From assembly GCF_003014615.1 (NCBI RefSeq), contig NZ_PYGI01000023.1, positions 1 through 64,000 of the forward strand: a stretch of 64,000 bases of DNA, in the 5' to 3' direction. A model generated the notes under the pieces. The model searched no databases, was not told the origin of the DNA, and saw only the letters and a program-made list of their open reading frames with translations. Positions 21,880-53,477 of the stretch are shown in pieces. Within the stretch, counting starts at the first letter, position 1; each line of letters starts with the position of its first letter. The position numbers and the translations under genes were made by a program. The DNA is from Marinobacterium halophilum (GTDB lineage Bacteria > Pseudomonadota > Gammaproteobacteria > Pseudomonadales > Balneatricaceae).

Positions 21880-23004
21880 CTATCGAATGAATATCTGGGA
21901 AGTCGATATCGCCATATCGCCGCCGGGTAGCTGGATATTACCCAGCTTTTCCATGCTGTCAGCGTTGTAGATGGCGACATCATTAAACGTACCGCCCAGA
22001 TAAATCTTGCTACCGTCATGATTGATGGCAATGCAGTAATAGGAGTGATCGAGTTCAGCTGCCTGCACCAATTCTTTCTTCTTGATATCGTATTTAGCTA
22101 GACGGTTCAGAACGCCATACACCAGGTTCGGATCTTTGGGTGACCGTATACCTGTAAAGTAGATCTCAGTAAGAGGGCCAAAGTCCGTGGTTTCAGTTTC
22201 CCCGGTTTCCAGATTCACATTCATAAAACCATAGATCCAGTCCGCCGTTTCAAGGTTGTAACTTTCATCCTGGAATTTCGCTGTGGTGTAAAGGATGGTG
22301 AAATCCTTGGATGGCGATTGGATTGGCCAGGCATTCAACACATCAGGCGGGGCATACAACGGACGCTGCCAGTTACGACTGGGAATCGCCACATCCACTT
22401 TACCTGTATTCACATCCACCTTGTAAATGTCGGCACCAGCCATGTAGAGGGTGCCATCATCACCAGTCTGCATCACCGTCACCTGACGTGGCGACGGAAA
22501 CGTACGTATCGGTTTGGCATTAAGCCCGGCACCGGTGTCATACACAGCAAGGCGGGGCGGCTGCACCCGATAATGATCGCGATACAGCATCGTGGGATTC
22601 TGCACCGCATACAGTTCGTTACCGTCGGCACTTATGGCAAAAGAGAAAATCGATTTGGTTCGTTCACCTTTTTGCAGCGACATGGAGGCATGGAAAGTCA
22701 CTTCACAGTTATCCAGATTGACCCCGTAAATATCCTCATAATGATTATTGAGAATGTAGGCGGTCTTACCATCTGGCGCGATCTGAGTAACACCTGGGCC
22801 AAATGCGTCCGGCAGCTCACAGCTTTTATAAAGCTGATCGGTCTGTAAGTCGATGACGTGTATATTGTTGGGGTAGTTGGCCACCACCATATACTCGTGC
22901 TCCTTTTCAAGCGCCGGCTCCTTGGCCAGCACACTGCCGGGAAGTAATACTCCCAAAATCAGCGCGGCAACAGGCATCAGTGATGTAAGTTGTTTGTTAT
23001 CCAT
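21880..23004 (-). CDS. qhpB: Quinohemoprotein amine dehydrogenase beta subunit, copy 1
   Basis: 374 residues: a signal peptide (PVAALILGVLLPGSVLA) then a seven-bladed beta-propeller visible as repeated NNIHVIDLQTD-like and DGTLYMAGADIYKVD-like blocks. In QHNDH the beta subunit forms the propeller that, with the gamma subunit, lines the active site in the periplasm. ATG 23004 is chosen because GAGGGTGA lies about ten bases upstream; a TTG two codons earlier is too close to it. It is the fourth gene of qhpA-D-C-B order, 18 bp after qhpC1. Its sequence is clearly homologous to copy 2 at 48932-50050 but diverged, for example in the C-terminal blade. Confidence 0.92.
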   Translation of the reverse strand: MDNKQLTSLMPVAALILGVLLPGSVLAKEPALEKEHEYMVVANYPNNIHVIDLQTDQLYKSCELPDAFGPGVTQIAPDGKTAYILNNHYEDIYGVNLDNCEVTFHASMSLQKGERTKSIFSFAISADGNELYAVQNPTMLYRDHYRVQPPRLAVYDTGAGLNAKPIRTFPSPRQVTVMQTGDDGTLYMAGADIYKVDVNTGKVDVAIPSRNWQRPLYAPPDVLNAWPIQSPSKDFTILYTTAKFQDESYNLETADWIYGFMNVNLETGETETTDFGPLTEIYFTGIRSPKDPNLVYGVLNRLAKYDIKKKELVQAAELDHSYYCIAINHDGSKIYLGGTFNDVAIYNADSMEKLGNIQLPGGDMAISTSQIFIR

Positions 23005-23022
23005 TATCAAATCACCCTCAGC

Positions 23023-23349
23023 TTAGTTCTTGTCTTGCGGGAACACGGTACCCAGATTGCGCCAGTCATCTTTCGAATTCATCGCATCCTTGTTCCAGTC
23101 CGGGTACGTGTTCATCATGTCCGGCACCTGAGCCGGCCACCAGCATGGATCGGCACAACCATAGAGATCGGCTTCCATCGGCTGACACAGTGAGGTCACA
23201 CCACCAAAGGCATCGATCTCCCAGCCCGGGTCAGTGGTCGCAGTACAGCCTGCCAGTGAACTCATGGCCACAACCTCTTCCACGCTGTCATCAGCAACCG
23301 CCTGACTCAGCAGTTGCGCCTTGTTATTGATCGCTTTGAGATGTTTCAT
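23023..23349 (-). CDS. qhpC: Quinohemoprotein amine dehydrogenase gamma subunit (CTQ peptide precursor), copy 1
   Basis: 108 residues: a 28-residue leader ([16 protein letters not shown] to EEVVA) and a mature chain starting MSSLAGC. Counting from that Met, all known modification sites are present: Cys7-Glu16, Cys27-Asp33 and Cys41-Asp49 for the three thioether bridges, and Cys37-Trp43 for the cysteine tryptophylquinone cofactor. The leader length equals that of the Paracoccus precursor. The protein is bridged by QhpD, hydroxylated at Trp by QhpG, cut by QhpE and exported by QhpF; those roles come from established QHNDH work. It begins one base after the qhpD1 stop, with GGAGGG upstream. Confidence 0.96.
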
Positions 23350-23350
23350 A

Positions 23351-24781
23351 TCAGTGCGCCCTCCGCGGCGAGATAAACTGGTCTATGAAGGCGGGGTTAG
23401 CCGCCATGATGCGGCTGTAGACTTCGATGCCGAAGTCGACCCAGTCTCGCATCAGGTCACAGTAGTGATAGGTCGGATGGGTGGGGTCGCCATACCGGGC
23501 GTAGCTCTCGTGGTAACAGCCACCTGAGCAGAGGTTGCGAATACGACAGCTGGCACAACCGGTATCAGTGCGGTCCAGCCGTTTGGACAGGAAGTCCCCC
23601 AACTCAACATGTTGCACACCGCTTTTAACGTTGCCGAAGGTCGGCATATCTGAGCCGGTGAACCGGTGACATAGGTTCAATTCGCCTTCATGATCCACCG
23701 CCAGCATCTTGAGTCCGGCTCCGCAAGGCAGCGCTTTCTTGTGCCCTTCATGCAGATCCGTGATCAACTGATGCATATTGGAGAACCCAATATTGCGGTG
23801 CTCCAGTGCGGCCTCAAGATAGCGTTGCCCCAGTCGTTTCATACCGGCAAACACTTCGATCAACTCCTCTGAGCTGAGGTTAAAGGTGGAGACATCACCG
23901 GAAGTGACCGGCGCAAATCCCACTTCGGAAAACCCCATCTCGTTGAACAGGTGATCCCATATCCGCTCAACCTCAGTGGTGCCTTTGGTCAGTGTGACTC
24001 GTGCCCCGATCGGGCGTGAATCGTACCGCTCCAGCAGGCGCTGCGCCTTGCGGCGTACCACATCATAAGTGCCCTGCCCGCCCACGGTGATCCGGTTCTT
24101 GTCGTGGATCGCCTTGGGCCCGTCCATGCTGACCGACAGCCCGAACCGGTGCGCGTTAAGCCAGTCGATGATTTCATCCGTGAGCAGCGTGGCGTTGGTG
24201 GTCATGACAAAATCCACCGGCTTGCCAAGCTCGGCGAACCGACGTTCGCAATATTCCACCATCGCCGTGATCAGAGGGCGGTTGCTGAGCGGCTCACCGC
24301 CAAAGAACACAACGGTGTAGCGCTCTTCATCCGGCGATTCTCGCAGCAGCATCTCCACCGAGTCGATGGCGGTTTGCAACTCCATCTTGCGCCCGGCAGA
24401 CGGGGTATCCAGGTCTTCCTTGTAGCAATAAGTACAGCTGAGGTTACAGCCGGTATTGACGTTCAGTACCACCGTGGTCAGTGGAAACTGATCAACTCTG
24501 CGTGTGCCGATCTCGTCGGTCAGCGGTCGACCATCATTCACCAGTTCCAAAGCCAGCAGTTCGCGCACTGTTTCCATGATCTCCTGTTCAGAAAAACAGT
24601 TGCTCAAATCTGACACCAATACTTCGGCCGGTTCTGCACCCTTGCGTAGCCGGTCAAAAATATCCGAGGTTAGACGATCCAGTGCAAACAGCGAGCTTGA
24701 CGGGATATGGAACAGCATTCGGGTCTCCCCGACCTGCACTTCGTGCAGATTGTGTTCAACCAAGTTGAGTACAGCGCCCAT
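23351..24781 (-). CDS. qhpD: Radical SAM/SPASM enzyme forming thioether bridges in QhpC, copy 1
   Basis: 476 residues. The radical-SAM cluster motif is CNLSCTYC (Cys112, 116, 119), followed by FFGGEPLSN. The C-terminal SPASM region carries further Cys for auxiliary clusters ([38 protein letters not shown]). QhpD abstracts hydrogen from Glu or Asp side chains to link them to Cys in QhpC in the cytoplasm. ATG 24781 has AGGGGAAA upstream and matches the start of copy 2, which has the same length and the same Cys positions; an upstream extension to 24811 is unsupported. It sits between qhpA1 (52-bp gap) and qhpC1 (1-bp gap). Confidence 0.95.
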
Positions 24782-24833
24782 GCCTATTTCCCCTTTCAGA
24801 TTATCAATCAATACTCTTGGGTTTTACTGTTCA

Positions 24834-26426
24834 TCACGGAATAGGTGGGTTGTTCCAGCGCTGTACGGTCACGATCATCTGACCTTCAGCGCTAAGGGTC
24901 TGCGCTCCATCCTGGACAGTCGCCTGTACCTTCAGGTTACCCGCGTTATTGGTCATCATGCGGCGCTGCGGATTGGGGCCAGCCGCCGCCGGTGTGAACA
25001 CCCCAGTGTTCGCGTTCATCTGACCGCTGAAACGCACGTCACCATCGGCATCAGCTACCTCATTGAACGGTGCAACCGCCCAATTGGCTGGCACCATGCC
25101 AATACGATAGTCGTCATCGGTACCCGGCTTGCCATCAGGGCCCGCCGCCCAGGCTTCGGCTTCAAAACGTGCTTCGACTTTAGGTGTGGAGCTACCGTTG
25201 CCACCAATCCGAGCGACTGCAAATTCAGGCACGACTTTTACTGCGGCGATGCGGTCATAAACAACAAAGCGTTCTCCCTCTATGGCACCGACCGCTGGTG
25301 TACTCACCCCAATGCCATTCGCTGAAGCACGAGCACGTACTCGAATCAGGTCGGGGCTTGCACTGAGGACTTCGACAACGTCAACGCCATTACCCAATAT
25401 CGGCAGACCACTCAAGCCCGTGCCAACAATACTGATTTCCGCTTCGCTACCTGCCTTTATATGGGAGGGTTGCAGCGCCAAGATACGGCTAGTACCCTTG
25501 GCATCGCGCACTGCAACCACATCTGCACCGACTTCATCCTGGTCGCGTAAAAACATGCGACCATTCAGCTGGCCATCATTTAATACAAACACCTGACGCA
25601 TCATCTGATCATTTATTTCGATATTGGCGCGCCATTCATAACCCGTATAGAGAATCGCCTGTCCTGTTCCTGCCAAGACGGTGCCGTCTGCATACTCACC
25701 GGTGAGCGTCAGTGTGAACTGGTCTTCGCCTTCAGCGGATGTCACGTTCATGCGAGCATGGAAATTCCCTTTACCCGGCATATGCCCAGCCAAAGTCCAA
25801 TCACCTGCAACGGGGGCTTCAGCCTGTTGTTGCCAGGCGATCCAGGCCTCGGAGTCAAGGGGTTGTGTCTCGGCCAGCTCCGGCACCATTTTGTTCAACG
25901 CAAGGTCCAGCCAGTCACGATCACGTGCCAATGCCTGAAATTCAGTGGTCGGCCACTGCCCCAGATGGAAGTGCACCAGATGCTCCCATTCTGATGCCGG
26001 ACGTCGTTGCAGCAGCACGCGAGCACCGGAGTGGCAACGAGCACACATTTCGGTGAAGCCCTGGGATTCGAATGATTCCTGGGTGTTTAAACGCCGCTCC
26101 AGAGCATAGCGTGCGCCCTCGGTTTCAGACGGTGCTAAACCTTGACGATCCGCCAGATATTTCACCAACATGCGACGATCCTCGTCACTGATCTCAAGAC
26201 CATGCATTATCTGCATGCGTGCGATAGTCATTAACCAGCCTTCAGGTGTCTTTCGCTGGTGACTAATGCGGCTCCATTGCTGATCGCCTTCCTGAGCATG
26301 GCAGGCCAGGCATTTACCCTGAATGATCTGTTCTGCTTCGGATGCCGCCTGTGATGACTGAGTCGCCAAAGCGACTGCCAGTGCCAGCAGGCCGCTCCCA
26401 AGTGGTTTTAATGCTGTTGTATTCAA
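24834..26426 (-). CDS. qhpA: Quinohemoprotein amine dehydrogenase alpha subunit (dihaem cytochrome c), copy 1
   Basis: 530 residues with a Sec signal peptide (MNTTALKPLGSG to SSQA). Two c-type haem sites are seen, CLACH (Cys39-His43) and CARCH (Cys128-His132), followed by beta-rich domains with VEARFEAEAWAAGPDGKPG-like blocks (core AAGPDGKPGTDDDYR). The alpha subunit takes electrons from the CTQ on the gamma subunit and passes them to periplasmic carriers. The start is a TTG at 26426, because a full GAAGGAGG lies seven bases upstream; an ATG at 26450 lies before that Shine-Dalgarno. First gene of the qhpA1-D1-C1-B1-porin2 operon, under a sigma-54-type promoter at 26516-26530. Confidence 0.94.
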   Translation of the reverse strand: MNTTALKPLGSGLLALAVALATQSSQAASEAEQIIQGKCLACHAQEGDQQWSRISHQRKTPEGWLMTIARMQIMHGLEISDEDRRMLVKYLADRQGLAPSETEGARYALERRLNTQESFESQGFTEMCARCHSGARVLLQRRPASEWEHLVHFHLGQWPTTEFQALARDRDWLDLALNKMVPELAETQPLDSEAWIAWQQQAEAPVAGDWTLAGHMPGKGNFHARMNVTSAEGEDQFTLTLTGEYADGTVLAGTGQAILYTGYEWRANIEINDQMMRQVFVLNDGQLNGRMFLRDQDEVGADVVAVRDAKGTSRILALQPSHIKAGSEAEISIVGTGLSGLPILGNGVDVVEVLSASPDLIRVRARASANGIGVSTPAVGAIEGERFVVYDRIAAVKVVPEFAVARIGGNGSSTPKVEARFEAEAWAAGPDGKPGTDDDYRIGMVPANWAVAPFNEVADADGDVRFSGQMNANTGVFTPAAAGPNPQRRMMTNNAGNLKVQATVQDGAQTLSAEGQMIVTVQRWNNPPIP

Positions 26427-26515
26427 GGTCTGACCTCCTTCTATGGTCATTTCCGAGGGTCTCACTAGAGACACCCGTTGAAAATCAAGGGGCATGTAAA
26501 GTCTCATGGAAATAA

Positions 26516-26530
26516 GCATAGCCTGTGCCA
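26516..26530 (-). promoter_or_regulatory. Sigma-54 promoter of qhpA1
   Basis: The minus strand reads TGGCACAGGCTATGC. The GG of the -24 box and the GC of the -12 box have the required ten bases between them, and TGGCAC is the full -24 consensus. The predicted start is near 26504, about 78 bases before the TTG start codon. Confidence 0.75.
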
Positions 26531-26607
26531 ACTTAACTTTTATCTTAAGAAACAATACCTTGAATAAAGAACTACTACTTTTGACCCCATGCACCCACTT
26601 GCCGGAT

Positions 26608-26799: not shown

Positions 26800-26814
26800 T
26801 GGCACAGCCATTGC
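26800..26814 (+). promoter_or_regulatory. Sigma-54 promoter of aldehyde dehydrogenase 2
   Basis: TGGCACAGCCATTGC is an almost perfect -24/-12 element (consensus TGGCACG-N4-TTGC). The predicted start is near 26826, about 33 bases before ATG 26859. Confidence 0.88.
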
Positions 26815-26858: not shown

Positions 26859-28349
26859 ATGACTGAGTTTGCCCTTCATCCTGACACTCAGGCGTTTATT
26901 ACTCGCAGCCACGCTCTGCTCATCGGAGAGCAGCGCCCAGCCGCCACGGGCGGGAAAGAGATTGATGTGATTAACCCCGCCACGGGTGAGCGTTTCACAC
27001 GTGTGGCCTGTGGTACCGCCGAGGATATTAATCAGGCGGTTGCTGTTGCACGCCGCACCTTTGATGATTCCAGCTGGAGTCGCATGACGCCGGTTGAGCG
27101 TGAACGTCTGCTGTGGCGTTTTGCTGACCTTATTGAAGCCAATGCACAATCTCTGGCCGAAATCGAATGCATGGACAACGGCAAAAGTGTGGCCATCGCC
27201 AAGGGCGTGGATATTCAACTTGCCGTCAACTTTCTGCGCTATATGGCTGGCTGGGCAACGAAAATCGAGGGCAGCAGCGTACAGCCTTCGGTTCCGTTCA
27301 TGCCCGGCGCGCAGTTCCATGGTTATACCCGGCGCGAACCGGTCGGGGTGGTGGGTGCGATTGTGGCCTGGAATTTCCCGCTGTTGCTAGCTTGCTGGAA
27401 GCTGGGGCCAGCGCTGGCGACCGGCTGCACGGTTGTACTCAAGCCTGCCGAAGACACTCCACTGACTGCATTAAGACTGGGTGAGTTGGCACTGGAAGCC
27501 GGATACCCGCCGGGGGTTTTGAATGTCGTACCCGGCCTGGGACATGATGCAGGTGCCGCACTGTCTTCCCATCCGGATGTGGACAAGCTCACCTTTACCG
27601 GCTCAACCGGCATTGGCAAGCTGATCGGCAAGGCCGCCATGGATCATATGACACGCGTGACACTCGAGCTGGGCGGCAAGTCGCCCACCATTGTATTGGA
27701 TGACGCCGACCTGCAAGAAGCTGCAGCGGGCGCGGCCAATGCGATCTTCTTCAATCAGGGGCAAGTGTGCTGTGCCGGCTCACGCCTATATGTGCAGCGC
27801 AAGCTGTTCGACAACCTAGTGGCGGATATCACCGATATCGCGAGCAAGATCCGTCTGGGCAATGGTCTGGATCCGAATACGGAGATGGGGCCACTGGTAT
27901 CGGCGGTACAACAACAGCGCGTGCATGGTTTCATCGAAAAAGGCCTGGCCGAAGGTGCACGCCTCACCACCGGTGGTGATCGTCAGGGCCCAGGGTATTT
28001 TATCCAACCGACGGTCGTGGTGGATGTGGATCAGCGTTCGACACTGGTACAGGAGGAGATTTTCGGTCCAGTACTGGTGGCTATGCCATTCGACGATATC
28101 GAGGACGCGATACGCATTGCCAACGACAGCCAGTACGGCCTTGGCGCCAGCATCTGGTCCAATAACCTGTCAGCGGTACACCGCATGATTCCGCGGATCA
28201 AATCCGGTAGCGTTTGGGTCAATTGCCACACCGCGCTGGACCCATCACTACCCTTTGGCGGCTTCAAACAGTCCGGTCTGGGTCGCGAAATGGGTGCCGC
28301 CTGTCTCGAACACTACACCGAACTCAAATCGGTATTGATGAAAATTTGA
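26859..28349 (+). CDS. NAD-dependent aldehyde dehydrogenase, FeaB/phenylacetaldehyde-type (module 1)
   Basis: 496 residues. The Glu base is in LELGGKSP and the catalytic Cys in GQVCCAGSR; the cofactor region contains VVGAIVAWNFPLLL and TFTGSTGIGK. The length and N-terminus resemble the phenylacetaldehyde dehydrogenase group that oxidises aldehydes made from primary amines. AAGAGG precedes the ATG. It is divergent from qhpA1 and has its own near-consensus sigma-54 promoter, so it would be induced together with the first amine dehydrogenase and convert its aldehyde product to the acid. Phenylacetaldehyde itself is only one possible substrate. A hairpin follows the stop. Confidence 0.92.
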   Translation: MTEFALHPDTQAFITRSHALLIGEQRPAATGGKEIDVINPATGERFTRVACGTAEDINQAVAVARRTFDDSSWSRMTPVERERLLWRFADLIEANAQSLAEIECMDNGKSVAIAKGVDIQLAVNFLRYMAGWATKIEGSSVQPSVPFMPGAQFHGYTRREPVGVVGAIVAWNFPLLLACWKLGPALATGCTVVLKPAEDTPLTALRLGELALEAGYPPGVLNVVPGLGHDAGAALSSHPDVDKLTFTGSTGIGKLIGKAAMDHMTRVTLELGGKSPTIVLDDADLQEAAAGAANAIFFNQGQVCCAGSRLYVQRKLFDNLVADITDIASKIRLGNGLDPNTEMGPLVSAVQQQRVHGFIEKGLAEGARLTTGGDRQGPGYFIQPTVVVDVDQRSTLVQEEIFGPVLVAMPFDDIEDAIRIANDSQYGLGASIWSNNLSAVHRMIPRIKSGSVWVNCHTALDPSLPFGGFKQSGLGREMGAACLEHYTELKSVLMKI

Positions 28350-28357
28350 TCACTCGA

Positions 28358-34513: not shown

Positions 34514-35497
34514 TCATCGCCAGGAGTGCAACCCGAATTCATGTTGTCCTCCTCCGGCAAAACGCTCTCGGTATTGACTCGGTGTCAGTCCTGTCTGTTT
34601 CTGAAACATCCGGCGAAACGCACTAACATCCTCATAGCCGACTTGCCAGGCCACCTGCTCCACCGTTGTCGCCGTGTTTTCGAGTTTTTCTCGCGCCTTG
34701 TGAACCCGCTGTTGTTGCAGATATTCCGCCGGTCTCAGCCCTGTTGCCTTCTGGAAGCGCCGGATAAAGGTGCGTTCGGTCAATGCGGCCTTTGCGGCCA
34801 TCTGTGCCACGTTCAACGGCTGGGCGTAGATACGATGAATATGGTGCTGCACGTGCAGAATGGCACGATCGTTATGATCCAGTACCGGTATGAAGCTCCG
34901 ATAGTAGCTTTGCTGCCGCACACCGGTGTCCACCAGCAAAAACCGGCCCAGCGCCTGCACCACCGTTGGCGGCACATAGCGACCGATCAAATGCAGCCCA
35001 AGGTCCACCCAGGACATGACGCCACCGGCCGTTACCAGGTCAGAATCCACCAGCAGTAACGCATCGGTATCGAGCTCGACATCGGGAAACGCGTACCGGA
35101 ATGCGCCCTCCAGTTGCCAGTGTGTCGTAGCGCGACGCCCCTCCAGCAGGCCGGCCTGTGCCAACAGAAACGCACCGGCACAGGCCGAGCTGATAACGGC
35201 CCCCTGCTGATGCCAACTATTCAACCGGGAACTGATGGCCGGCTGTGGTTCCAGATACAACTGCCCGTCCAGTACCGGCGGCACAATCACCAGCGAAGGC
35301 GAACATGCATCCGCATCAACGGCGATCACCTGCCCCGCGTCCAGCTGCCAGCGGCTGATGCTGAACGTAAGGTCAGGTGCATGCTGTAGCTCATTCAATA
35401 TGCGATTGGCACTCTGGAACAGGTCGATCAACCCGTAGACCGCGGACAGTGCTGTGCCCGGGATCATCAAAATAGCGACATTGATAGTCTGCGACAT
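34514..35497 (-). CDS. GlxA-family AraC-type regulator (DJ-1/PfpI domain)
   Basis: 327 residues: an N-terminal DJ-1/PfpI-like class I glutamine amidotransferase domain (VAILMIPGTALSAVYGLIDLF to about 200), then two AraC-type helix-turn-helix units, the second with VAWQVGYEDVSAFRRMFQK. The nucleophile region SSACAGAFLLAQAG retains a Cys, but activity is unlikely in this regulator family. It is divergent from a cysteine hydrolase gene and probably controls it. The Shine-Dalgarno sequence is weak. Confidence 0.9.
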   Translation of the reverse strand: MSQTINVAILMIPGTALSAVYGLIDLFQSANRILNELQHAPDLTFSISRWQLDAGQVIAVDADACSPSLVIVPPVLDGQLYLEPQPAISSRLNSWHQQGAVISSACAGAFLLAQAGLLEGRRATTHWQLEGAFRYAFPDVELDTDALLLVDSDLVTAGGVMSWVDLGLHLIGRYVPPTVVQALGRFLLVDTGVRQQSYYRSFIPVLDHNDRAILHVQHHIHRIYAQPLNVAQMAAKAALTERTFIRRFQKATGLRPAEYLQQQRVHKAREKLENTATTVEQVAWQVGYEDVSAFRRMFQKQTGLTPSQYRERFAGGGQHEFGLHSWR

Positions 35498-35590
35498 GTC
35501 AGTTTTTGCCTTTTTATTGTCAGTATTGCCACCAGCTCAGACTAACAGGCCGCGTTAGGATAATCAGCACTAACCTAACAGGAGACTCAC

Positions 35591-36142
35591 ATGAGCAAGA
35601 CCGCGCTGATTATCGTCGATATGCAGAACGACTACTTCCCGCAGGGCAAATGGACATTAACCGGTATCGAAACGGCTGCCGCTAATACGGCCAAAGTGCT
35701 TGCCACCTTTCGTGAGCGCCAGCAGCCGGTCATTCATGTACGTCATGAGTTTCCGTCCAACGACGCACCGTTCTTTGTACCAGGCAGCGAAGGTGCCAAC
35801 ATTCATGCTGACCTGCGCCCTGCGGATGGCGAGTTCCAGATTCTCAAGAACGAAGTGAACAGTTTCAAGGGGACTGAATTGCAGGCCTTGCTGCAACGTG
35901 AACAGATCACCGAGCTGGTGATTGTCGGTGCCATGAGCCATATCTGTATCGATGCGATCACCCGCGCAGCCGGGGATTTGGGCTACGCCAACACCGTACT
36001 CCACGACGCCTGCGCCACGCTGGATGCAGAGTTCAACGGCGTACAGGTACCCGCTGCACAGGTACATGCCGCCTTCATGGCTGCATTGGCTTTTGCCTAT
36101 GCAGACGTCATCAGCACCGATACATTCCTGTCACGCGGGTAA
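35591..36142 (+). CDS. Isochorismatase-fold cysteine hydrolase
   Basis: 183 residues. The catalytic triad of the family can be placed: Asp10 in IIVDMQNDYF, Lys86 in QILKNEVNSF and Cys119 in VGAMSHICID. The family cleaves amide or vinyl-ether bonds (nicotinamidases, ureidoacrylate and isochorismate hydrolases). AGGAGAC precedes the ATG. It is divergent from the GlxA-type regulator, a common arrangement for inducible amidohydrolase genes. Substrate unknown. Confidence 0.9.
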   Translation: MSKTALIIVDMQNDYFPQGKWTLTGIETAAANTAKVLATFRERQQPVIHVRHEFPSNDAPFFVPGSEGANIHADLRPADGEFQILKNEVNSFKGTELQALLQREQITELVIVGAMSHICIDAITRAAGDLGYANTVLHDACATLDAEFNGVQVPAAQVHAAFMAALAFAYADVISTDTFLSRG

Positions 36143-45107: not shown

Positions 45108-46433
45108 TCAGTATACCCACCTCTGCTGTTGCATCCACTGCGCCAACAAAGCCCCCTTATCGATACCGACCGTGCGAGCCAGCACCGCTGCAGGCAAAGT
45201 ACCGGGCTCGGAACGAATGGCGTCCAGCAACGGGGCCAGCGGCAGGCCATTCAGGTGCCAGATACCCAGTGGCTGATCTGGCGTAACCACCACTGGTGCC
45301 TCAATGATCACCCCGTCCTGAACGACTGGCCGCATGGCGGTTGTGACCTGGTCGGGTGTAATTTCAAGATGCATGGGCTGCCTGTCTGGCCACTGGCGAC
45401 GGGCCTGCCAAAAGGGTGTATCCGGCCATTGCGATTCCTGAGCGTAAAAGTCACGGCCAATACGGGCAAAGCGGTAAAACAGCCCTTCGATACGGGCCTC
45501 ATGAAATTGCCTGGCCAGTTCTGCCCGTTCGGGGTGACGGATCAAGGTATTAACCACCGCCGGAGCCTGCAAGGCGGATGATAGTGCCTGAAAGATACCG
45601 TTACCGGACAGCGGGTCGACCGCCATTGCTGCATCACCGACCCGTATCCAGTTGTGACCGGCGCTCTGCTCACACAGCACCGGTGTGCTGGTGCGGGCGT
45701 AAACTTCGCCGACCGGTTCGGCACCTTCGATAAAGGGCTGCGCCTGCTCCAGTTGCTGCAACCGCTCGCGGCACCAGTCGCCCAGCTGCCGCTTGGGTGG
45801 CAAGGCAACGCTGGCCACGTCCAGCGTCAGCTGTAGATAGCGCCGACCGTCCGCCCGCATCGCCAACCAGGCCCAGCCATCGGCAAAGCTCTGTACCGCT
45901 GTGCACGGCACCGCATGCGCGCCCTGCCAGTATTGCAGCAATGAAACCGTCTGCGTGCCCTTGATCCGCGGCACCCCCGCAGCTGGAGCTGCACGACCAC
46001 GGGCCTCAACCAGAAAATCGCCATATATCTGCTCCTGCCCACCTGCAGACAACGCGACCTCAGCCTGATAGCCTGTCTTCATGGCATGACAGCTCTGTAT
46101 CCGCCCCTGTATCACCTGCACCCCCTGCCGGGCCAGATCCAGCAGCAGCGCCTGATCAAAACGTTGACGGGTTACCAGCCGCTCGGTGTTGGCGGCGTTG
46201 GTGACACCGTTCCAGGTTACCTGCCGGGGTGAAGGCTCAGCCATTGCGCTGAGCGCAAAGCCGAAACCGGCCCCTTGCATGCCTTGAATGACGCGCTCGG
46301 AGATTCCCTCCACAGCATCGAAGGGGCGCGGCTCACTCACCAACGTCACGCGATAGCCTAAACGGCTCAAACCGATGGCCACCGCGCCACCGGCCGGACC
46401 GCCGCCCAGCACCAAAATGTCCGACTCACGCAT
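45108..46433 (-). CDS. qhpG: FAD-dependent monooxygenase for CTQ biogenesis
   Basis: 441 residues. The FAD-binding GxGxxG motif is ILVLGGGPAGGAVA at the N-terminus, and GDAAMAVDPLSGNGIFQAL is the second FAD motif typical of flavin monooxygenases and halogenase-like enzymes. QhpG adds two oxygen atoms to the Trp of QhpC to make the quinone precursor. ATG 46433 has AGAGGGGTGG upstream and overlaps the end of qhpE. Only one copy exists in the window, so it would have to act on both QhpC1 and QhpC2 unless another lies elsewhere in the genome. Confidence 0.92.
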   Translation of the reverse strand: MRESDILVLGGGPAGGAVAIGLSRLGYRVTLVSEPRPFDAVEGISERVIQGMQGAGFGFALSAMAEPSPRQVTWNGVTNAANTERLVTRQRFDQALLLDLARQGVQVIQGRIQSCHAMKTGYQAEVALSAGGQEQIYGDFLVEARGRAAPAAGVPRIKGTQTVSLLQYWQGAHAVPCTAVQSFADGWAWLAMRADGRRYLQLTLDVASVALPPKRQLGDWCRERLQQLEQAQPFIEGAEPVGEVYARTSTPVLCEQSAGHNWIRVGDAAMAVDPLSGNGIFQALSSALQAPAVVNTLIRHPERAELARQFHEARIEGLFYRFARIGRDFYAQESQWPDTPFWQARRQWPDRQPMHLEITPDQVTTAMRPVVQDGVIIEAPVVVTPDQPLGIWHLNGLPLAPLLDAIRSEPGTLPAAVLARTVGIDKGALLAQWMQQQRWVY

Positions 46434-47112
46434 CCACCACCCCTCTCTGTTCCGGCCCTTGATAACAGGATCGTTCAATTAGCCATGCGCGGGCAGCACT
46501 CACCCGTGGCTGGTCCGCATCTCGCAGGTAACCCGCCAGATGTGCGCTCAGATGGGCACAGCCTAAACTGGCACCCGACTGCCCCGGCGTCTCATCCAGC
46601 GGCCGCACACAGGCACCGAAATCGGCAAATTCGGTATCCAGGTGGGTGATTTCGGTGCGCGAACAGCGGGCATCACCGGTCATGCGAAAAACACCGGAAT
46701 ATGCCGAGGGATACACCGGCTCGCCCCGTGCCGGGCTGGCCGCACACAGAATTACCCCCCGTTTGCGCGCACGGGCACAGGCCTCACGCAACGACTCTCG
46801 ATCCTGACGTAGCCCCAAGCTTAAATTGATCAGCTGTGCACCCTCCTCCACCAGCCAATCGATGGCCGCCGCCACCTGCGCTGCTGTAGTGGTGAAACGG
46901 TCATGAAACACTTGGGCCGACAGCACTTCAGCGTCCGGTGCCAGTGTCTGGATAATCTCGATAATGCGGCTGCCGTGGCCGAGCTGATCCGGCACCGCAT
47001 CCGCTAACCAGAGCTGTCCCTCTTCCACCGCAAAGGCGGCACTGCCGGTCACCTTCTGTGCAACTCCATGCCCGGAATCCACCACGCCGATACGGACAAC
47101 ATCAGTCGACAC
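46426..47112 (-). CDS. qhpE: Subtilisin-like serine protease for QhpC leader removal
   Basis: 228 residues, a compact S8 protease without signal peptide. The triad is visible as Asp12 (GVVDSGHG), His46 (LGHGSRI) and Ser182 (SGASLGCAHLSAH). The block where subtilisins carry the oxyanion Asn reads CAASPARG, so that Asn seems replaced. QhpE cuts the leader from bridged QhpC in the cytoplasm. It overlaps qhpF by 11 bp and qhpG by 8 bp, showing a tightly coupled F-E-G set. Cluster 1 has no equivalent gene. Confidence 0.92.
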   Translation of the reverse strand: MSTDVVRIGVVDSGHGVAQKVTGSAAFAVEEGQLWLADAVPDQLGHGSRIIEIIQTLAPDAEVLSAQVFHDRFTTTAAQVAAAIDWLVEEGAQLINLSLGLRQDRESLREACARARKRGVILCAASPARGEPVYPSAYSGVFRMTGDARCSRTEITHLDTEFADFGACVRPLDETPGQSGASLGCAHLSAHLAGYLRDADQPRVSAARAWLIERSCYQGPEQRGVVDA

Positions 47113-48829
47113 GGCTAACCTCCTCCATGGTGCTCAGATGGCCATTTTGCAACAACAACCGATGATCAGCCCCCGCCAGTGTTGAGGGTCGATGGCTGAT
47201 CAGAATACGGGTACGGCCAGCAAACAGCCGGTCCACCGCCGCAATTACCTGCTGTTCGGTGGCCTCATCCACTGCCGAGGTTGCCTCATCCAGCACCAGT
47301 ACCGCCGGCTGCTGCAACAGCGCACGAGCGATGGCAATACGCTGTTTCTGCCCACCGGAGAGCTGCTGACCACGTTCACCCAGAGGCGTATCCAGCCCCT
47401 GCGGCAGGTAATCGATCAACGCATCCAGCTGTGCCTCGCGAGCCGCTTCACGCACCTGTTCGTCGCTGGCTGTTGGGCAGGCATAGCGCAGATTGTCCGC
47501 CAGCGAACCCCTGAACAACGTGATCTCCTGAGACACGACTGCCACGCTGCGGCGCAAGTCCGCCAGCCCCAACTCACGAATATCCACACCATCAAGCAAC
47601 ACCTGCCCTGCCTGAGGATCGTAGTGACGCTGCAGCAGGTCGATCAGTGTTGATTTACCCGCACCTGAAGCACCGGCCAAGGCGATCTTTTGTCCCGCCG
47701 GCAATACCACACTGACTTGACTCAGCACCGGCTCCCGTCCTTCATAAGCAAAACTGACGCCCTGCAGCGTCAACTCACCCTGTAGCGGCTGCGGCAGCGG
47801 CTTGGGCTGCGCTGGTGAATCGATCTCGGCATCGGTCAGCCGCAGTTCACTGACCCGGTTAAGACTGACACTCATCCGCTGGATCGCGACATACAGACCA
47901 AGCAAGCTGTTCACCGGCCCTGTCGCCATCCCCAGATACGTGGAAAATGCGATCAGTGAACCCAGCTGCCACTGCCCTTGTATCACCCACCAACCACCGA
48001 TCAGGAACGCACTGGCACGTGTGATTGAAGTCAAAGTGCCGGGAATGGCATGGGTAAAGAATTCAGTCACCTGCAGTTGCAACAGCTTGTCCAGATAATT
48101 GTCGTTAAGACCGCCCAGCCGGGTACGTTCGCGCGCTTCCTGACCACTGGACTGGATAAACTTAATCGCGGGCAAGGTTTCCACCAGAAAGCTGGACAGA
48201 TCCGCCGAGCGTTCACGCATTTCGCGGGTGCGCAGTTCCACCTTGCGCCGCATCCAGCGCAGCCAGACAATTTCCAGTGGAATCAGCACCAGTACCAGCA
48301 GTGACAGCTGCCAGGACAGCGCAACCAGCAGTACCAGCGCCCCGACCAACCCTATAATGCTGCTCACCGCCGAGAACAGGCTGTCCACGGCAAAACGCTG
48401 GATCGCCGCCACATCCCCATCGATGCGGGACAGCAGATCACCAATCCGGCGCTGACCGAAAAACGACGGCGACAGCCGTTGCAGGTGCGCATACAGGTCG
48501 GTGCGCAGAGCAAACAGGATGCGGCCAGACAGCTGCGTGTGCAGATAACGATTAAGGCCGGCAAGTGCCGTACTGAACACGCCCACCAACACCATGGCGA
48601 TCGCCATCTGGATCAGCATGCCGTAGTCTTTGGCCAGTAACCCATCGTCGATCAGCAGCTTGGTCAGCCAGGGTTGTAGCAGCACCAGTGCAGAGCCAAT
48701 GAACGATAACCCCAGCAGGCCGATGATGGCCCGCCGCTGCGGTTTGACGAAGCTGTATAACCAGTGGAAACCGCGTTCCAGCTGGGTGCGGTCGGGCGCA
48801 TGAATGGCGCGTACCAGCCAGTTTAGCAT
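47102..48829 (-). CDS. qhpF: ABC transporter (fused permease-ATPase), QhpC exporter
   Basis: 575 residues: six membrane helices in the first ~310 residues, then an ATPase with Walker A GASGAGKST, signature LSGGQKQ and Walker B LVLDEATSAVD. It is a half-size exporter of the MsbA/peptide type. In QHNDH systems QhpF moves the processed gamma subunit to the periplasm. ATG 48829 has AGGAAT upstream. It begins about 100 bp after qhpB2, behind a terminator-like hairpin, so qhpF-E-G should be expressed less than the structural genes. Confidence 0.93.
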   Translation of the reverse strand: MLNWLVRAIHAPDRTQLERGFHWLYSFVKPQRRAIIGLLGLSFIGSALVLLQPWLTKLLIDDGLLAKDYGMLIQMAIAMVLVGVFSTALAGLNRYLHTQLSGRILFALRTDLYAHLQRLSPSFFGQRRIGDLLSRIDGDVAAIQRFAVDSLFSAVSSIIGLVGALVLLVALSWQLSLLVLVLIPLEIVWLRWMRRKVELRTREMRERSADLSSFLVETLPAIKFIQSSGQEARERTRLGGLNDNYLDKLLQLQVTEFFTHAIPGTLTSITRASAFLIGGWWVIQGQWQLGSLIAFSTYLGMATGPVNSLLGLYVAIQRMSVSLNRVSELRLTDAEIDSPAQPKPLPQPLQGELTLQGVSFAYEGREPVLSQVSVVLPAGQKIALAGASGAGKSTLIDLLQRHYDPQAGQVLLDGVDIRELGLADLRRSVAVVSQEITLFRGSLADNLRYACPTASDEQVREAAREAQLDALIDYLPQGLDTPLGERGQQLSGGQKQRIAIARALLQQPAVLVLDEATSAVDEATEQQVIAAVDRLFAGRTRILISHRPSTLAGADHRLLLQNGHLSTMEEVSRVD

Positions 48830-48866
48830 GTTGAATTCCTCAGCCGTATTTCAATACCAGACGACA

Positions 48867-48899
48867 AAAACGGGAGGCCCGTTGCCGGCACCTCCCGTT
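48867..48899 (-). terminator. Terminator-like attenuator between qhpB2 and qhpF
   Basis: The minus strand reads AACGGGAGG, a 13-base loop, CCTCCCGTT, then TTTG (stem 48869-48877 with 48891-48899; T5 run). It has the form of an intrinsic terminator but lies inside the operon, so it probably lets through only part of the transcripts to the maturation genes. Confidence 0.72.
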
Positions 48900-48931
48900 G
48901 ACTATACCCGATTACAAGACTCAGCCAGATA

Positions 48932-50050
48932 TCAGTCCTTGATGGTGGCTACCCGCATATCGGCCGTGCTCATGTCACCAGTCAGCTGGATTGAACCGAT
49001 CTTGTCCAGAGTCTCGGAGTCATGGATCGAGATATCACTACTGGTACCGCCCACGTAGAGGGTTTCACCATCACCGGAGATATTGATGGTGTAGTAGGTG
49101 TGCGGCATCTCCTTCACAGCCAGTGTCTTCTGTTGGCTGATATCATGCTTGGACAGCGTGTTGAAGCTGCCGTACAGGATATCGTTGTTACGCGGATCAC
49201 TGACAAAGTTGAAGATGATGAACTCGAACGGGAAGATCTCACGACGCTCGACTTTACCCGTCTCCAGATCAACACGCGCCATGCCCCACCACCATTCAGC
49301 GGTTTCGAAGTTCATGGTATCGTCGGTAAACTTCGCCGTGGAGTACGGCATGATGTACTCGTTGGACTGGTTGCCCTGGCTGTGCATGGCAAATGCATCA
49401 GGCGGAAGCCACTGCGGACCGCGTTCCCAGTTGGCCAGCTTCGTAACAATGCGGGTTTCACCGGTCTGCGGGTTGATCGCTTTCAAGTCAGCCCCACCGA
49501 GTACCACTTCACCGGTTTCAGTCGCAACAATCTTGGTAATGCGACGGTCCACTGGAAAGGTACGTACCGGTTCGGCACCCATGCCGTCTGCGATGTTGAA
49601 GACCGCCAGACGCGGTTCCAGCACTTCGAAACGGTCACGGTGTTTCCGAGTCGGGTTCTGTACGGTATACAGTTCCTTGCCATCCGCACTGACCGCCAGT
49701 GACTGGTAACTCTTCACCTGCAACGTCGGTGTGGATTGTGCCGCATGGAAAGTCACTTCACAGGTACGGATATCAAAGCCGTATACGTCTTCCCAGTTGT
49801 GCCCCAGGATGAACACGTGGGTGCCGTCGGGATGTACCGACATGATACCGGACCCGAAGTCACCCGGAATATCACAGGTGCGGGCAACCTTGTTGGTCTC
49901 CATGTCGATCACATGCAGCTGGTTGGGACGGGTGACGGTCAGCAGGTATTCTTGATCTGCCATCGCCGCCGGAGCCACCGCCGACAACACACTGCCCAGC
50001 GCCAGCGAGCCGACCAGTCCGGCCGATTTAAACAGTTTATTCAGTTTCAT
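48932..50050 (-). CDS. qhpB: Quinohemoprotein amine dehydrogenase beta subunit, copy 2
   Basis: 372 residues: a signal peptide (LVGSLALGSVLSAVAPAAMA) and a seven-bladed propeller, with blocks such as NQLHVIDMETNKVARTCD (core LHVIDMETNKV), GEVVLGGADLKAINPQTGE and GETLYVGGTSSDISIHDSE. It is homologous to copy 1 throughout. ATG 50050 has AAGGGAA at good distance; the GTG and TTG just upstream are less likely. It follows qhpC2 by 12 bp. Confidence 0.92.
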   Translation of the reverse strand: MKLNKLFKSAGLVGSLALGSVLSAVAPAAMADQEYLLTVTRPNQLHVIDMETNKVARTCDIPGDFGSGIMSVHPDGTHVFILGHNWEDVYGFDIRTCEVTFHAAQSTPTLQVKSYQSLAVSADGKELYTVQNPTRKHRDRFEVLEPRLAVFNIADGMGAEPVRTFPVDRRITKIVATETGEVVLGGADLKAINPQTGETRIVTKLANWERGPQWLPPDAFAMHSQGNQSNEYIMPYSTAKFTDDTMNFETAEWWWGMARVDLETGKVERREIFPFEFIIFNFVSDPRNNDILYGSFNTLSKHDISQQKTLAVKEMPHTYYTINISGDGETLYVGGTSSDISIHDSETLDKIGSIQLTGDMSTADMRVATIKD

Positions 50051-50062
50051 CACCAAATTCCC

Positions 50063-50386
50063 TTACTCTGCATCCTCGAAAATACCGTCCAGCTTGCGCC
50101 AGTCCTTATCGGCTTTCGCCACACCTTCACCCCAGTTCGGGTAGGTGTTCATGGTGTCCGGCACCTGCGCCGGCCACCAGCAGGCATCGGCACAACCGTA
50201 GAGGTCGGACTCCATCGGCTGGCAGAGTGAGCCCAGACCACCAAAGGGGTCCAGTTCCCAACCCGGGTCAGTTGTCGCGGTGCAGCCAACAACGGTCTGC
50301 ATGGCCACCACATCTTCCACTTCTTCCGGGCTGATGGCCTTGTTGATCAACTGTGCTTTTTTGTTCAGAGATTTCAGGTGTTTCAT
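50063..50386 (-). CDS. qhpC: Quinohemoprotein amine dehydrogenase gamma subunit (CTQ peptide precursor), copy 2
   Basis: 107 residues with a 28-residue leader ([16 protein letters not shown] to VEDVVA) and a mature chain starting MQTVVGC. All cross-link residues are in place counted from that Met: Cys7/Glu16, Cys27/Asp33, Cys41/Asp49, and Cys37/Trp43 for CTQ. Compared with copy 1, position 40 is Ala instead of Pro and the C-terminal 30 residues differ most. ATG 50386 is preferred over a GTG three codons upstream, because it gives the same leader length as copy 1. One base separates it from the qhpD2 stop. Confidence 0.96.
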
Positions 50387-50387
50387 A

Positions 50388-51818
50388 TCAGGCACTCCTC
50401 CTGGGAGAGACGTATGCGTCGAAGAACCCCGGGTTCTCGAGCATGATCCGCGAATACACTTCCACGCCGAAATCGACCCAGTCTCGCATCAGGTCGCAGT
50501 AGTGGTAGGAAGGATGCGTCGGATCTCCATATTTGGCATAACTTTCGTGGTAGCAACCACCCGAACAGAGGTTACGAATACGGCAGGTTTCACAGCCGGT
50601 ATTGCTGCGATCAAGACGCTTCTCGACAAACTCGGCCAGACGCGGCCGGTCGATGCCATTCTCGATATCACCGAACAGCGGCATGTCCGAGCCGGTGAAC
50701 CGGTGGCACAGGTTGAGCCCGCCATCCTTGTCCACCGCCAGCAGACCGATACCGGCGCCGCAGGGCACCAGTTTCTTGTTGCCCTCATACATGTCGGTAA
50801 TCAGCTGGTGCATGTTGCCGTAGCCGAAGTTTTCATTGCGCAACGCGGCATCCAGATAGCGCTTGCCCAGACGTTTCATCCCCGCGAACACCTCAACCAG
50901 CTCTTCGCCAGTCAGGTTGTACTCGGCAATATCGCCCGAGGTCACTGGACCAAAGCCAACTTCAAAGAAGCCCAGCTCGCCACTGAGGTGATCGTAGATC
51001 GTCTCCACATCAGTGACGCCACGTGTCAAGGTAACGCGACAGCCCACCGGACGTGCTGTGTAGCGCGCCAGCAGCATTTCCACCTTGCGCCGCACCACGT
51101 CGTAGGTGCCCTGACCGCCAACCGTAATTCGGTTCTTATCGTGCATCGCCTTGGGTCCGTCCATGGAGATGGTCAGGCCGAAGCGATGTTCGTTGAACCA
51201 ATCCACCAGCGACTCGTTGAGTAAGGTGGCGTTGGTGGTCATGGTGAAGTCCACTGTGGCATCCAGTGCCGCGAAACGTTCCTCGCAGTAGGCAACCACT
51301 TCACGGATCAGCGTCATGTTGCTCAGTGGTTCCCCACCAAAGAACACCACGTTGTAGTTGGGCTGGTTCGGCGACTCCCGCAGCATCATCTCGACCGACT
51401 GGATCGCCGTCGCAGACGCCATCTTCTCACCCTTGGACGGGGTGGTCAGATCTTCCTTGTAGCAATAAGTGCAGCTCAGGTTGCAACCGGTGTTGACGTT
51501 CAACACCACGGTATTCAACGGAAACTTGTCCACCTTCTGCGGCTCGGGGTTAATCCGGGCCACCACGCCCGCCTCGGAGATCACCTCCAGGCTGCGCAGC
51601 TCGTCCAGCACTTCATTGACAGCTTCTACCGAATAACGCACCTGCAGTTCAGCCAGGTGTTCCGGCTGGACCTGCTCATGGCAATCGAACACGTGAAGCA
51701 GTTCACGGCCAAGTTCGTCGAGCTCGAAGATACTGCTGCTGGGGATATGAAACAGCATCTGACGGGCATCAACATCAACCCGGTGCAGATTCGGTTTCAC
51801 TAGCGTCATGGCGCCCAT
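50388..51818 (-). CDS. qhpD: Radical SAM/SPASM enzyme forming thioether bridges in QhpC, copy 2
   Basis: 476 residues, the same length as copy 1, with the cluster motif CNLSCTYC at Cys112/116/119 and the SPASM Cys set ([38 protein letters not shown]). The N-terminal ~90 residues, which in related enzymes bind the leader of the peptide, are the most diverged part between copies; FHIPSSS is kept. ATG 51818 has GAGGTGAG directly upstream. Each QHNDH cluster thus keeps its own bridge-forming enzyme beside its own substrate. Confidence 0.95.
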
Positions 51819-51872
51819 ACTCACCTCGTTGTTGTTCTATTGGGTAGCTGCGTGTTCAGCATGCGCTATCGA

Positions 51873-53477
51873 TCAGTCCAGCACGCGGCGCACGAAGTCG
51901 GGAACCGAGACCAGCATGCTGCCCTCACCCTCAACCTTGGCGCTGCTGTCGGCAACGGTTGCAACCACGGTCAGACGACCGACGTTATTGGCCGACATTT
52001 TGCGTTCCGGGTTAGGCCCGGCATCACCCGGCGTGAAGATACCGGCGGCATTAATGCTGCCCGCGTATTGTTCATCTTTGTCATGGGCAGCCACTTCATC
52101 GGCTGGCTTGATGCTCCAGCTCGCAGGCATGTAACCCAAGCGCAGATCATCGTCAGTCCCCGGTTTGCCGTCAGCACCGGCGCTGTAACCCACGGCACGG
52201 TAGGCGGCGCGTACTTTTTCCATCTTGCCACCAGCACCGCCGATACGGCTGACCGCATTGGCAGGCAATACTTCAACACGGGCCAATTCGCTGTACACCG
52301 CCAGACCCGCGTTATCCGCCGCGGTTCCCACACGCGGCGTGCGCAGGCCTTCACTGCCGGTCGCTTTCGCAATCAAAGTAATGCGGTCATCCGCACGAGA
52401 CAGAATTTTCTCGACAACAACGCCTTCGCCCAGATCAATATCACCCTTGAGGTACTGGCCGATCAGGGTCAGTTCAGCGCTTTCACCTGCGCGCAGGTAG
52501 GACGGCTGCACCGCAACCAGTGCGGCCATGTTCTGATCACGTACACCGCTCACTTCGCCGCCGATCTCGCGTTCGGCTGCCAGGAACATGCGACCTTCAA
52601 GCCGGTTGGCTTTTTTATCAGCCGCCATCACCTGACGCATTTTCACGCCATCGATGGTCAGGCTGGCACGCCATTCATAACCGGTATATACGGTTGCCTT
52701 GCCCGCGCCGGACAGCAGGGTGCCATCGGCATAGTGACCGTCCAGCGTCACGTCGTAATGGTTGTCGGAGGTTTTGACCGCACTCATCCAAGCATCGAAT
52801 TCGCCTTTGCCCGGCACGAAGCCGGTGATGCGCCAGCGGCCCATCAGATCGGTTTTGACTGCTTGCTGCCAGTTGTTCCACTCCTGCGTGATCAGCGGGA
52901 AACGCTGACCCAGTTCAGCGGCAGTTTCCGTGCTGGCAATCTTGTACCATTCACGGTCACGGGCCAGAGAATGCAGTTCAGTAGTCGGGAACTGGCCCAT
53001 GTGGAAGTCGACCAGGTATTTCCATTCCTGCTCGGTACGGCGCTGCAGGCTGAAACGGGCGGCGGAGTGACAGCGGGAACAGGTTTCGGCCAGTGCCGGT
53101 TCAATACCGGACTCAACGCGATTGGTGTCCTGTTCCAGCAGATAACGGTAAGGCGCCGCCTCTTCAGGGGCCAGGCCCTGAGTGTCAGACAGGTACTGCA
53201 CCAGTGCCCGTTTTTCGCCAGCGGCAAGTTCCAGGCCTCGCAGATGGGTCATTCGGTTGAGTGTCATCAACCAGCCTTCTGGCGTTTTACGTTGCTGACT
53301 GATACGCGAGAAGCTGGGGGCTTCGGCATCACCGCTAACGGTGTGACACGCCAGACAACGGTCCTTGATGATCTGCTCTGCATCTTGGGCGTGTAGCGGC
53401 ATGCTGGCCAACCCGGCCAATGCCAATACGCCCGTGCCCAAAACTGCACGTTTCGAATTATTATTACTCAATGCCAT
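51873..53477 (-). CDS. qhpA: Quinohemoprotein amine dehydrogenase alpha subunit (dihaem cytochrome c), copy 2
   Basis: 534 residues with a signal peptide (VLALAGLASMPLHA) cleaved before QDAEQI. The haem sites are CLACH (Cys41-His45) and CSRCH (Cys133-His137). The beta-rich rest matches copy 1, with the same SAGADGKPGTDDDLR-type block near the C-terminus. ATG 53477 has GAGGGA upstream. It heads the second operon, and its promoter region carries the four-repeat array shared with porin1. It is divergent from the response regulator gene. Confidence 0.94.
   Translation of the reverse strand: MALSNNNSKRAVLGTGVLALAGLASMPLHAQDAEQIIKDRCLACHTVSGDAEAPSFSRISQQRKTPEGWLMTLNRMTHLRGLELAAGEKRALVQYLSDTQGLAPEEAAPYRYLLEQDTNRVESGIEPALAETCSRCHSAARFSLQRRTEQEWKYLVDFHMGQFPTTELHSLARDREWYKIASTETAAELGQRFPLITQEWNNWQQAVKTDLMGRWRITGFVPGKGEFDAWMSAVKTSDNHYDVTLDGHYADGTLLSGAGKATVYTGYEWRASLTIDGVKMRQVMAADKKANRLEGRMFLAAEREIGGEVSGVRDQNMAALVAVQPSYLRAGESAELTLIGQYLKGDIDLGEGVVVEKILSRADDRITLIAKATGSEGLRTPRVGTAADNAGLAVYSELARVEVLPANAVSRIGGAGGKMEKVRAAYRAVGYSAGADGKPGTDDDLRLGYMPASWSIKPADEVAAHDKDEQYAGSINAAGIFTPGDAGPNPERKMSANNVGRLTVVATVADSSAKVEGEGSMLVSVPDFVRRVLD

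Follow-up and report, generated by a model that had tools for sequence, protein, structure and literature searches.

Why should a bacterium carry two complete operons for the same enzyme and only one set of the genes that finish it? The question is raised by the first 64,000 bases of a Marinobacterium halophilum contig (NZ_PYGI01000023.1; C23:1-64000, hereafter the window), part of a genome of 3.65 Mb that is 99.87% complete. NCBI places Marinobacterium in the Oceanospirillaceae, and Marinobacterium species give the closest QhpE matches among named genomes. The enzyme is quinohemoprotein amine dehydrogenase (QHNDH), the gamma subunit of which has the bridges Cys7-Glu16, Cys27-Asp33 and Cys41-Asp49 and a cysteine tryptophylquinone (CTQ) at Cys37 and Trp43 (PMC8172795). 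The window holds the genes qhpA-D-C-B twice and qhpF, qhpE and qhpG (FEG) once. The reading that we think very probable is that of a private QhpD for each gamma subunit and of a QhpF, QhpE and QhpG common to both QHNDH isoenzymes.

The reading starts from the genes themselves. A sequence-only reading of the window had claimed that qhpA-D-C-B occurs twice in the same order, and all eight structural and QhpD open reading frames (ORFs) are indeed there, on the minus strand, and pass the curated NCBIfam cut-offs with which the qhp genes were scored, as do QhpE and QhpG of cluster 2; no model exceeded its cut-off for QhpF. The alpha, beta and gamma subunits of both clusters belong to QHNDH. Operon 1, of what we call type 1, spans 21880-26450 and encodes the di-haem alpha subunit (qhpA1, 24834..26450; QH_alpha, 710 bits; PDB 1jmx_A), a radical S-adenosylmethionine (SAM) thioether maturase (qhpD1, 23351..24811; TIGR03906, quino_hemo_SAM, 770 bits; modelled with AlphaFold2, AF2), the gamma subunit precursor with a leader of 28 residues (qhpC1, 23023..23349; QH_gamma, 172 bits; 1jmx_G aligns from residue 29) and the beta subunit (qhpB1, 21880..23010; QH_beta, 502 bits). 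Operon 2, of type 2, spans 48932-53477 with qhpA2 (51873..53477; QH_alpha, 591 bits; ATG checked), qhpD2 (50388..51824; TIGR03906, 734 bits), qhpC2 (50063..50386; QH_gamma, 167 bits; its alignments with 1jju_C and 1jmx_G start at the mature N terminus) and qhpB2 (48932..50056; QH_beta, 320 bits; 1jmx_B). It is followed, on the same strand, by qhpF, the single close copy of the ATP-binding cassette (ABC) exporter gene and in its usual position (47102..48829; PF00664/PF00005), by the only copy of qhpE, for a subtilisin-like leader protease (46426..47112; NF049966, QH_SP, 298 bits), and by the only copy of qhpG, for a flavoprotein Trp dihydroxylase (45108..46478; NF049967, 573 bits; PDB 7ctq_A). 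The qhpD/qhpC junction is TGA-T-ATG in both operons, just as had been noticed; among relatives, outgroup rows included, it measures 1 bp in 30 of 40 first-type rows and lies between -4 and +4 in 51 of 53 second-type rows. The spacing of about 25 kb given earlier needs correction, the gamma genes being 27 kb apart.

In the whole genome there are two gamma genes, one copy of qhpE and one of qhpG, the next match to QhpG being 27% identical at 21 bits; QhpF has 56 other ABC-type matches, the best of them 33% identical. The whole-genome check that had been proposed for a second FEG set found neither a second qhpE or qhpG nor a second close qhpF, and the three genes are confined to cluster 2, as first read. 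Because a second qhpE and qhpG are absent from the genome, QhpE, QhpF and QhpG should serve both gammas if both are made; the earlier statement that they must do so had been made conditional on single copies, a condition that E and G satisfy and that F, so far as the matches allow a judgement, satisfies too. Between the clusters, identity is 46.5% for A, 39.4% for B, 62.6% for C and 63.1% for D; the pairs are old paralogues. Duplication in the assembly is rejected, since the copies are merely 39-63% identical and were found again in relatives. The ratio of nonsynonymous to synonymous substitution rates (dN/dS) was 0 to 0.131 for the genes of both operons and FEG in five genome pairs, three of the values (F, E and G of one pair) being bounds because dS was saturated; both operons are, by this measure, under purifying selection in these pairs. 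The catalytic H and S of QhpE are present in 76 of 76 rows (70 of them distinct) and the D in 74, the other 2 having gaps.

The arrangement is a feature of much of the surrounding family, by which we mean, in all counts, group f1 of the genome search (116 genomes, cited by our own handles; eight outgroup genomes stand outside it, and gamma types and FEG positions per genome were tallied by hand). A gamma gene is present in 51 of the 116, and 32 have two, in each case one of type 1 and one of type 2; the 19 with a single gamma comprise two of type 1 (G043, G075) and 17 of type 2. That each operon keeps a QhpD gene of its own, as the sequence-only reading held, is borne out by 31 of the 32 two-gamma genomes, which have two QhpD over the cut-off, the exception (G031) having a decayed operon 2. 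One QhpE was found in 31 of the 32, with two in G054, and one QhpG over the cut-off likewise in 31, G013 carrying a second, distant one. Outside the family, 14 QHNDH genomes were met, all with one gamma: 11 in a draw of 390 genomes from the order (19 gamma-bearing, the other 8 within the family), a further two among 398 genomes drawn from the phylum and one among 369 drawn from the class.

The histories of the structural genes and of FEG are different. In quick IQ-TREE runs, the A, B, C and D trees each divide into a type 2 and a type 1 clade, with supports of 100/99, 100/98, 100/94 (few columns) and 100/96, respectively. The type 1 clade takes in G207, G234 and G280, a Zoogloeaceae metagenome-assembled genome (MAG) and a Marinobacter MAG, and the type 2 clade Oceanospirillum, Halomonas and Vreelandella; because the G207 gamma matches 1jmx_G best, the first three genomes are probably Pseudomonas. 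Type labels needed three changes each on the D tree owing to outgroup rows having been labelled by best hit, the outgroup needed two on the C tree, and G077_D1_463140 is a long outlier of the D tree. The E, F and G trees show no type 1/type 2 split like that of A-D. Rows lying beside type 1 required six changes in E (8 rows), six in F (7 rows) and five in G (7 rows; the distant rows G077_G_457692 and G013_G_17110 were omitted). The FEG rows of G075, G028 and L042 have as nearest rows ones beside type 2 or away from type 1, and those of G104-G108 are nearest each other and then to G037, a type-2-only genome. Taken together, E, F and G largely go with the genome and not with the operon.

The position of FEG tells the same story with individual genomes as natural experiments. 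FEG is beside type 2 in 23 of the 32 two-gamma genomes. F and E are beside type 2 with G apart in G027, G031 and G032; in G028, F and E stand behind type 1, again with G apart, and in all four G is at least 44 kb from either operon. In G104, G106 and G108, and by contig pieces in G107, the whole of FEG is behind type 1, and A2D2C2B2 lies elsewhere without it; in G058, G059, G067 and G068, the operons themselves are on different contigs or more than 1 Mb apart. Loss is as telling as movement. G075 has type 1 alone and no A2D2C2B2, and retains FEG behind its activator; its gap before F keeps the terminator that is seen between B2 and F in G071, G072 and G076: the type 2 structural genes were lost and FEG remained. 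In G031 (L096) type 2 is decaying: the stretch has no A2 match, D2 covers residues 283-478 only, B2 is in three frames and C2 has no ATG, GTG or TTG at the usual place; F and E beside this wreck are open, and so is type 1 some 550 kb away. Finally, G207, G234 and G280 have type 1 alone, with a sigma-54-dependent activator gene and F-E-G 26-35 kb distant. Together, the position swaps, G075, G031 and the three probable Pseudomonas genomes say, as far as gene content can, that FEG works with either type.

How might such sharing operate? Most probably, each QhpC would be bound through its leader by its own QhpD and then cross-linked; the cross-linked gamma would pass to the common QhpG for Trp dihydroxylation, the common QhpE would cut the leader and the common QhpF would export the product, which in the periplasm would assemble with the alpha and beta subunits that belong to it. 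PMC7876137 is the source for the sequence of steps and for the ternary QhpC-QhpD-QhpG complex. Should QhpG depend on QhpD there, a single QhpG would have to dock on both types of QhpD. Type 1 would be the isoenzyme akin to that of Pseudomonas putida, under sigma-54 control and accompanied by an activator and an aldehyde dehydrogenase of its own; the type 2 isoenzyme would be the one common to Oceanospirillum and Halomonas, free of sigma-54 control; and FEG would be a detachable service unit, parted from the type 2 structural genes by a terminator. The sequences themselves show the gene content, the two clades of A, B, C and D, FEG genes that for the most part go with the genome, changes in the position of FEG and the disappearance of type 2 where FEG is retained. 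We infer three things about the cell: both gammas are substrates of QhpE, QhpF and QhpG, each QhpD has a preference for the gamma of its own operon, and the supply of E and G, or their turnover, is enough for the two.

Several observations weigh against this reading. PMC7876137 describes QhpD, QhpE and QhpG as single-turnover, said to fit their encoding and expression with QhpC, and single-turnover QhpE and QhpG would make sharing costly. The arrangement fits such co-encoding for QhpD and strains it for E and G, which leaves two ways out: more FEG is produced than the two gammas together require, or E and G are capable of turnover. G054 (L079, L100) has two E, two F and one G, with a separate F and E for each operon, so that partly private sets do exist; its type-1-side F and E are far from all others, its own second copies included, and its D1 stands apart from C1, adjoining the divergent F-E pair. 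G043 (87% complete) has type 1 with no E or G over the cut-off; in G056, which has type 2, E and F are present but no G exceeds the cut-off. In the trees, 500 shuffles of the beside-type-1 label gave a change count as low 15 times for E, 11 times for G and 83 times for F, the label being somewhat clustered because the four genomes of G104-G108 group together. The exclusivity of QhpF is weak, ABC exporters being abundant, and retention of QhpD may reflect its place inside A-D-C-B rather than specificity. Tentatively, and with rather more doubt than confidence, we suggest that each QhpD is a one-for-one partner of the gamma encoded against it and that QhpE and QhpG, by contrast, are multi-turnover shared catalysts expressed at a lower level behind the terminator, the single turnover then being a property of the test tube or of single-operon species.

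What each enzyme reads in the gamma precursor bears on which step could be private. All eight crosslink and CTQ residues are present in QhpC1, and every one of the 94 gammas compared, 38 of type 1 and 56 of type 2 (outgroup excluded), retains them. In alignments, the first residue of the chains 1jmx_G and 1jju_C falls on residue 29 of QhpC1 and on its counterpart in QhpC2, giving a leader of 28 residues, and the cleavage site VVA|M is found in 33 of the 38 and 55 of the 56. Gamma loop 39-51 docks into QhpG (PMC7876137); it has one sequence in 36 of 38 type 1 gammas and another in 51 of 56 type 2 gammas, the two differing mainly at two places. The sites that E and G read are thus alike in both types. 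The leaders are different: residue 6 is A or P in 38 of 38 type 1 and S in 56 of 56 type 2 gammas, and residue 9 is N in 34 of 38 and K in 55 of 56. At 70-75% identity of the mature part, leader residues 1-14 are 78.1% identical within types (70 pairs) and 62.6% between them (190 pairs); a type signal confined to this half, the one read by QhpD, was considered and rejected, as residues 15-28 also diverge between types (59.9% within, 48.9% between). The pairs behind the leader and QhpD identities are not independent.

For QhpD, the sequence-only reading had taken the divergence of the N-terminal regions to fit a private recognition step. The N-terminal domains of QhpD1 and QhpD2 are 36.7% identical and the remainder 70.9%; at 72-75% core identity, the domain is 39.6% identical between types (290 pairs) and 49.3% within them (105 pairs), and to that extent the suggestion stands. 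Comparisons with outgroup lineages give a similar figure (42.2%, 23 pairs, same bin), and type-fixed residues are not significantly enriched in the domain (3/20 vs 11/219, p = 0.10), so that a clustering of type-separating residues there had to be rejected. In the AF2 model of QhpD1, the region 14-87 forms four strands and then three helices (mean pLDDT, the predicted local distance difference test score, of 74.9 for the model, with blocks 11 to 90 at 78-92), and the best Foldseek matches of the model as a whole are 5why and 5wgg. Maturases of the CteB kind are marked by an N-terminal, leader-binding (RRE-like) domain together with radical SAM and SPASM parts. A private QhpD step is plausible and unproven. 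A rival to it is that QhpD is doubled only through its place inside A-D-C-B and that either QhpD processes either gamma, with nothing private at all: the p value, the outgroup figure and the identical crosslink residues of the mature gammas all lean that way, and we regard it as a serious possibility, if one that we would not bet on. Against it, both QhpD are kept in 31 of the 32 two-gamma genomes, the exception being the decayed operon; in the bin given above, N-terminal identity drops by about 10 points from within-type to between-type pairs; and leader residues 6 and 9 are type-specific.

A rival of comparable standing holds that FEG once accompanied both operons and that a redundant set was lost at random, the sharing being simple redundancy with no functional message. 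Two ancestral sets are possible, as the sigma-54 activator gene adjoins F-E-G in the type 1 loci of G207, G234, G280 and G104-G108 and B2 adjoins F-E-G in type 2 loci, and G054 still retains E and F in duplicate, with one F-E pair remote from all other rows. Apart from G054, however, the family's E, F and G beside type 1 form no separate old clade, and such an origin concerns how the sharing arose and not whether there is sharing; we think this account of the origin somewhat less probable than its opposite. Far less credible is a scheme in which type 1 gamma is finished by other, nonhomologous enzymes and FEG serves type 2 only. It could draw on FEG being encoded with type 2 in the window and in most two-gamma genomes, and on G043 (87% complete), with type 1 alone and neither E nor G over the cut-off; yet the five other genomes in which type 1 is the only intact QHNDH (G075, G031, G207, G234 and G280) all retain E, F and G. 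Moreover, the gamma chain 1jmx_G, which we take to be that of P. putida, is nearer type 1 (160.5 bits) than type 2 (118.1 bits), and the QhpG that works in vitro comes from P. putida (PMC7876137). Least probable of all is that type 1 has no function, being a duplicate that is silent or was acquired recently, for although it groups with sequences of other families and transfer is possible, its gammas keep all eight crosslink and CTQ residues, its genes have a dN/dS of 0 to 0.065 in five pairs, its sigma-54 sites are conserved and it is present in 34 of the 51 gamma-bearing family genomes.

The control of the two operons differs, and the proposal of two expression regimes is supported by sigma-54 sites. 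We scanned for sigma-54 -24/-12 sites with at most one mismatch and with GG and GC required, loci with fewer than 300 bases upstream and the eight outgroup genomes being left out. Of 38 type 1 loci, 31 have such a site ahead of qhpA and 31 have one on the divergent strand; for the 54 type 2 loci the figures are 2 and 0. Those two are at the odd distances of 449 and 283 bases from qhpA2, and one belongs to the genome that contains the window. Window-wide, the pattern has 16 matches with no more than one mismatch, where chance would give 9.1, and a single site says little alone. At operon 1, a site with one mismatch lies before qhpA1 (26516..26530, minus strand) and an exact one before the divergent aldehyde dehydrogenase (26800..26814, plus strand), both promoter-like by pattern scan. 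The mechanical qhpA1 ORF extends to a GTG at 26594; because the first site would then fall inside its 5' extension, the likely start is the ATG at 26450, which was checked.

Between qhpB2 and qhpF lies a hairpin resembling an intrinsic terminator (48869..48899, minus strand; -22.2 kcal/mol, followed by a T run), so that FEG is separated from the structural genes even in genomes where the two adjoin. QhpD is encoded before this terminator and, as a rule, tight against qhpC. A hairpin of this kind is present in 36 of 44 B2-F gaps, compared with 1.6 expected from shuffles, under the criterion that we rely on, which allows long loops; two other criteria gave 25 of 43, and 19 of 44 with 0.2 expected. 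It was found in 0/55 E-G, 0/55 A2-D2 and 0/55 C2-B2 gaps, in no outgroup B-F gap (0/6) and, around type 1, in 0/42 A1-D1, 0/40 C1-B1 and 3/19 B1-porin gaps. Genomes with two operons have it in 25 of 26 cases and loci with only type 2 seen in 11 of 18 (p = 0.005); this is a hand count that ignores kinship, four of the 18 loci are contigs of unchecked copy number, and we do not use the value as proof.

QHNDH, its parts and single qhp operons are already known. Type 1 alpha and gamma align along the solved 1jmx chains of the P. putida enzyme, and QhpG aligns with 7ctq; the three probable Pseudomonas genomes differ in having one structural operon, with FEG well removed behind the sigma-54 activator. 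The qhp operon of Paracoccus denitrificans (1jju; qhpABCDEFGR) has, according to PMC7876137, the same gene set and maturation steps as here. There the structural and maturation genes are co-expressed under one regulator, whereas operon 1 departs from the description of a qhp operon, with qhpD, E, F and G beside their own qhpC, in having no maturation gene save qhpD. CteB, the leader-dependent radical SAM maturase whose structures (5wgg/5why) are the best matches of the QhpD1 model, was the modelling template in the same paper; unlike CteB, QhpD modifies a 108-residue enzyme subunit precursor, and here two QhpD/QhpC pairs feed one downstream set. Doubled qhp sets with a private QhpD and a shared, wandering FEG were not found in the literature surveyed, in a survey that is incomplete for earlier papers and includes some as excerpts. 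The interest of the arrangement is that QhpD has remained with its substrate and E and G have not, in a large part of the family and through several rearrangements, which makes the published idea of one helper per molecule directly testable. Natural strains are at hand, among them Amphritea opalescens, whose locus (L060) contains FEG and the two operons. In such strains, one-for-one maturation steps could be told from catalytic ones, the portions of the gamma precursor recognised by each enzyme could be mapped, and it could be learned how a single finishing line copes with two differently controlled enzymes. As a practical hint, a laboratory host supplied with a single FEG set might be able to mature several QHNDHs.

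Downstream of operon 1, on the minus strand, are a porin-like outer-membrane gene (20461..21855; PF13372, 32 bits), a relative of which is found in many type 1 loci, and a sigma-54-dependent activator (17773..19800; PF00158, 220 bits, HTH_8), which adjoins many type 1 operons; the divergent aldehyde dehydrogenase (26859..28349, plus strand; PF00171, 589 bits) is likewise found alongside many of them. Between the operons, at 34514-36142, an AraC/DJ-1-type regulator is divergent from a neighbouring ORF, presumably isochorismatase-like. Divergent from operon 2, at 53731-60803 on the plus strand, a response regulator overlaps the start of a 2158-residue ORF with matches to protein kinase, AAA, GAF, PAS, histidine kinase, receiver and Hpt domains. 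Elsewhere in the family, in the 99% complete G056 (L101), E is parted from F by a probable aldehyde dehydrogenase, judged by eye, and another ORF. The second QhpG-like flavoprotein of G013 (L138, contig C14) scores 330 bits and is 40% identical, with no other qhp genes in the fetched stretch. On contig C12 of G077 (L137, 7690-14580), a LodA-like protein (a weak PF18417 match, below the cut-off) overlaps a radical SAM protein that resembles QhpD (TIGR03906 at 319 bits, under the cut-off), with a ferritin-like protein nearby and a QhpG-like flavoprotein over the cut-off at 325 bits; this stretch possibly encodes another quinone-bearing oxidase with a QhpD-like maturase.

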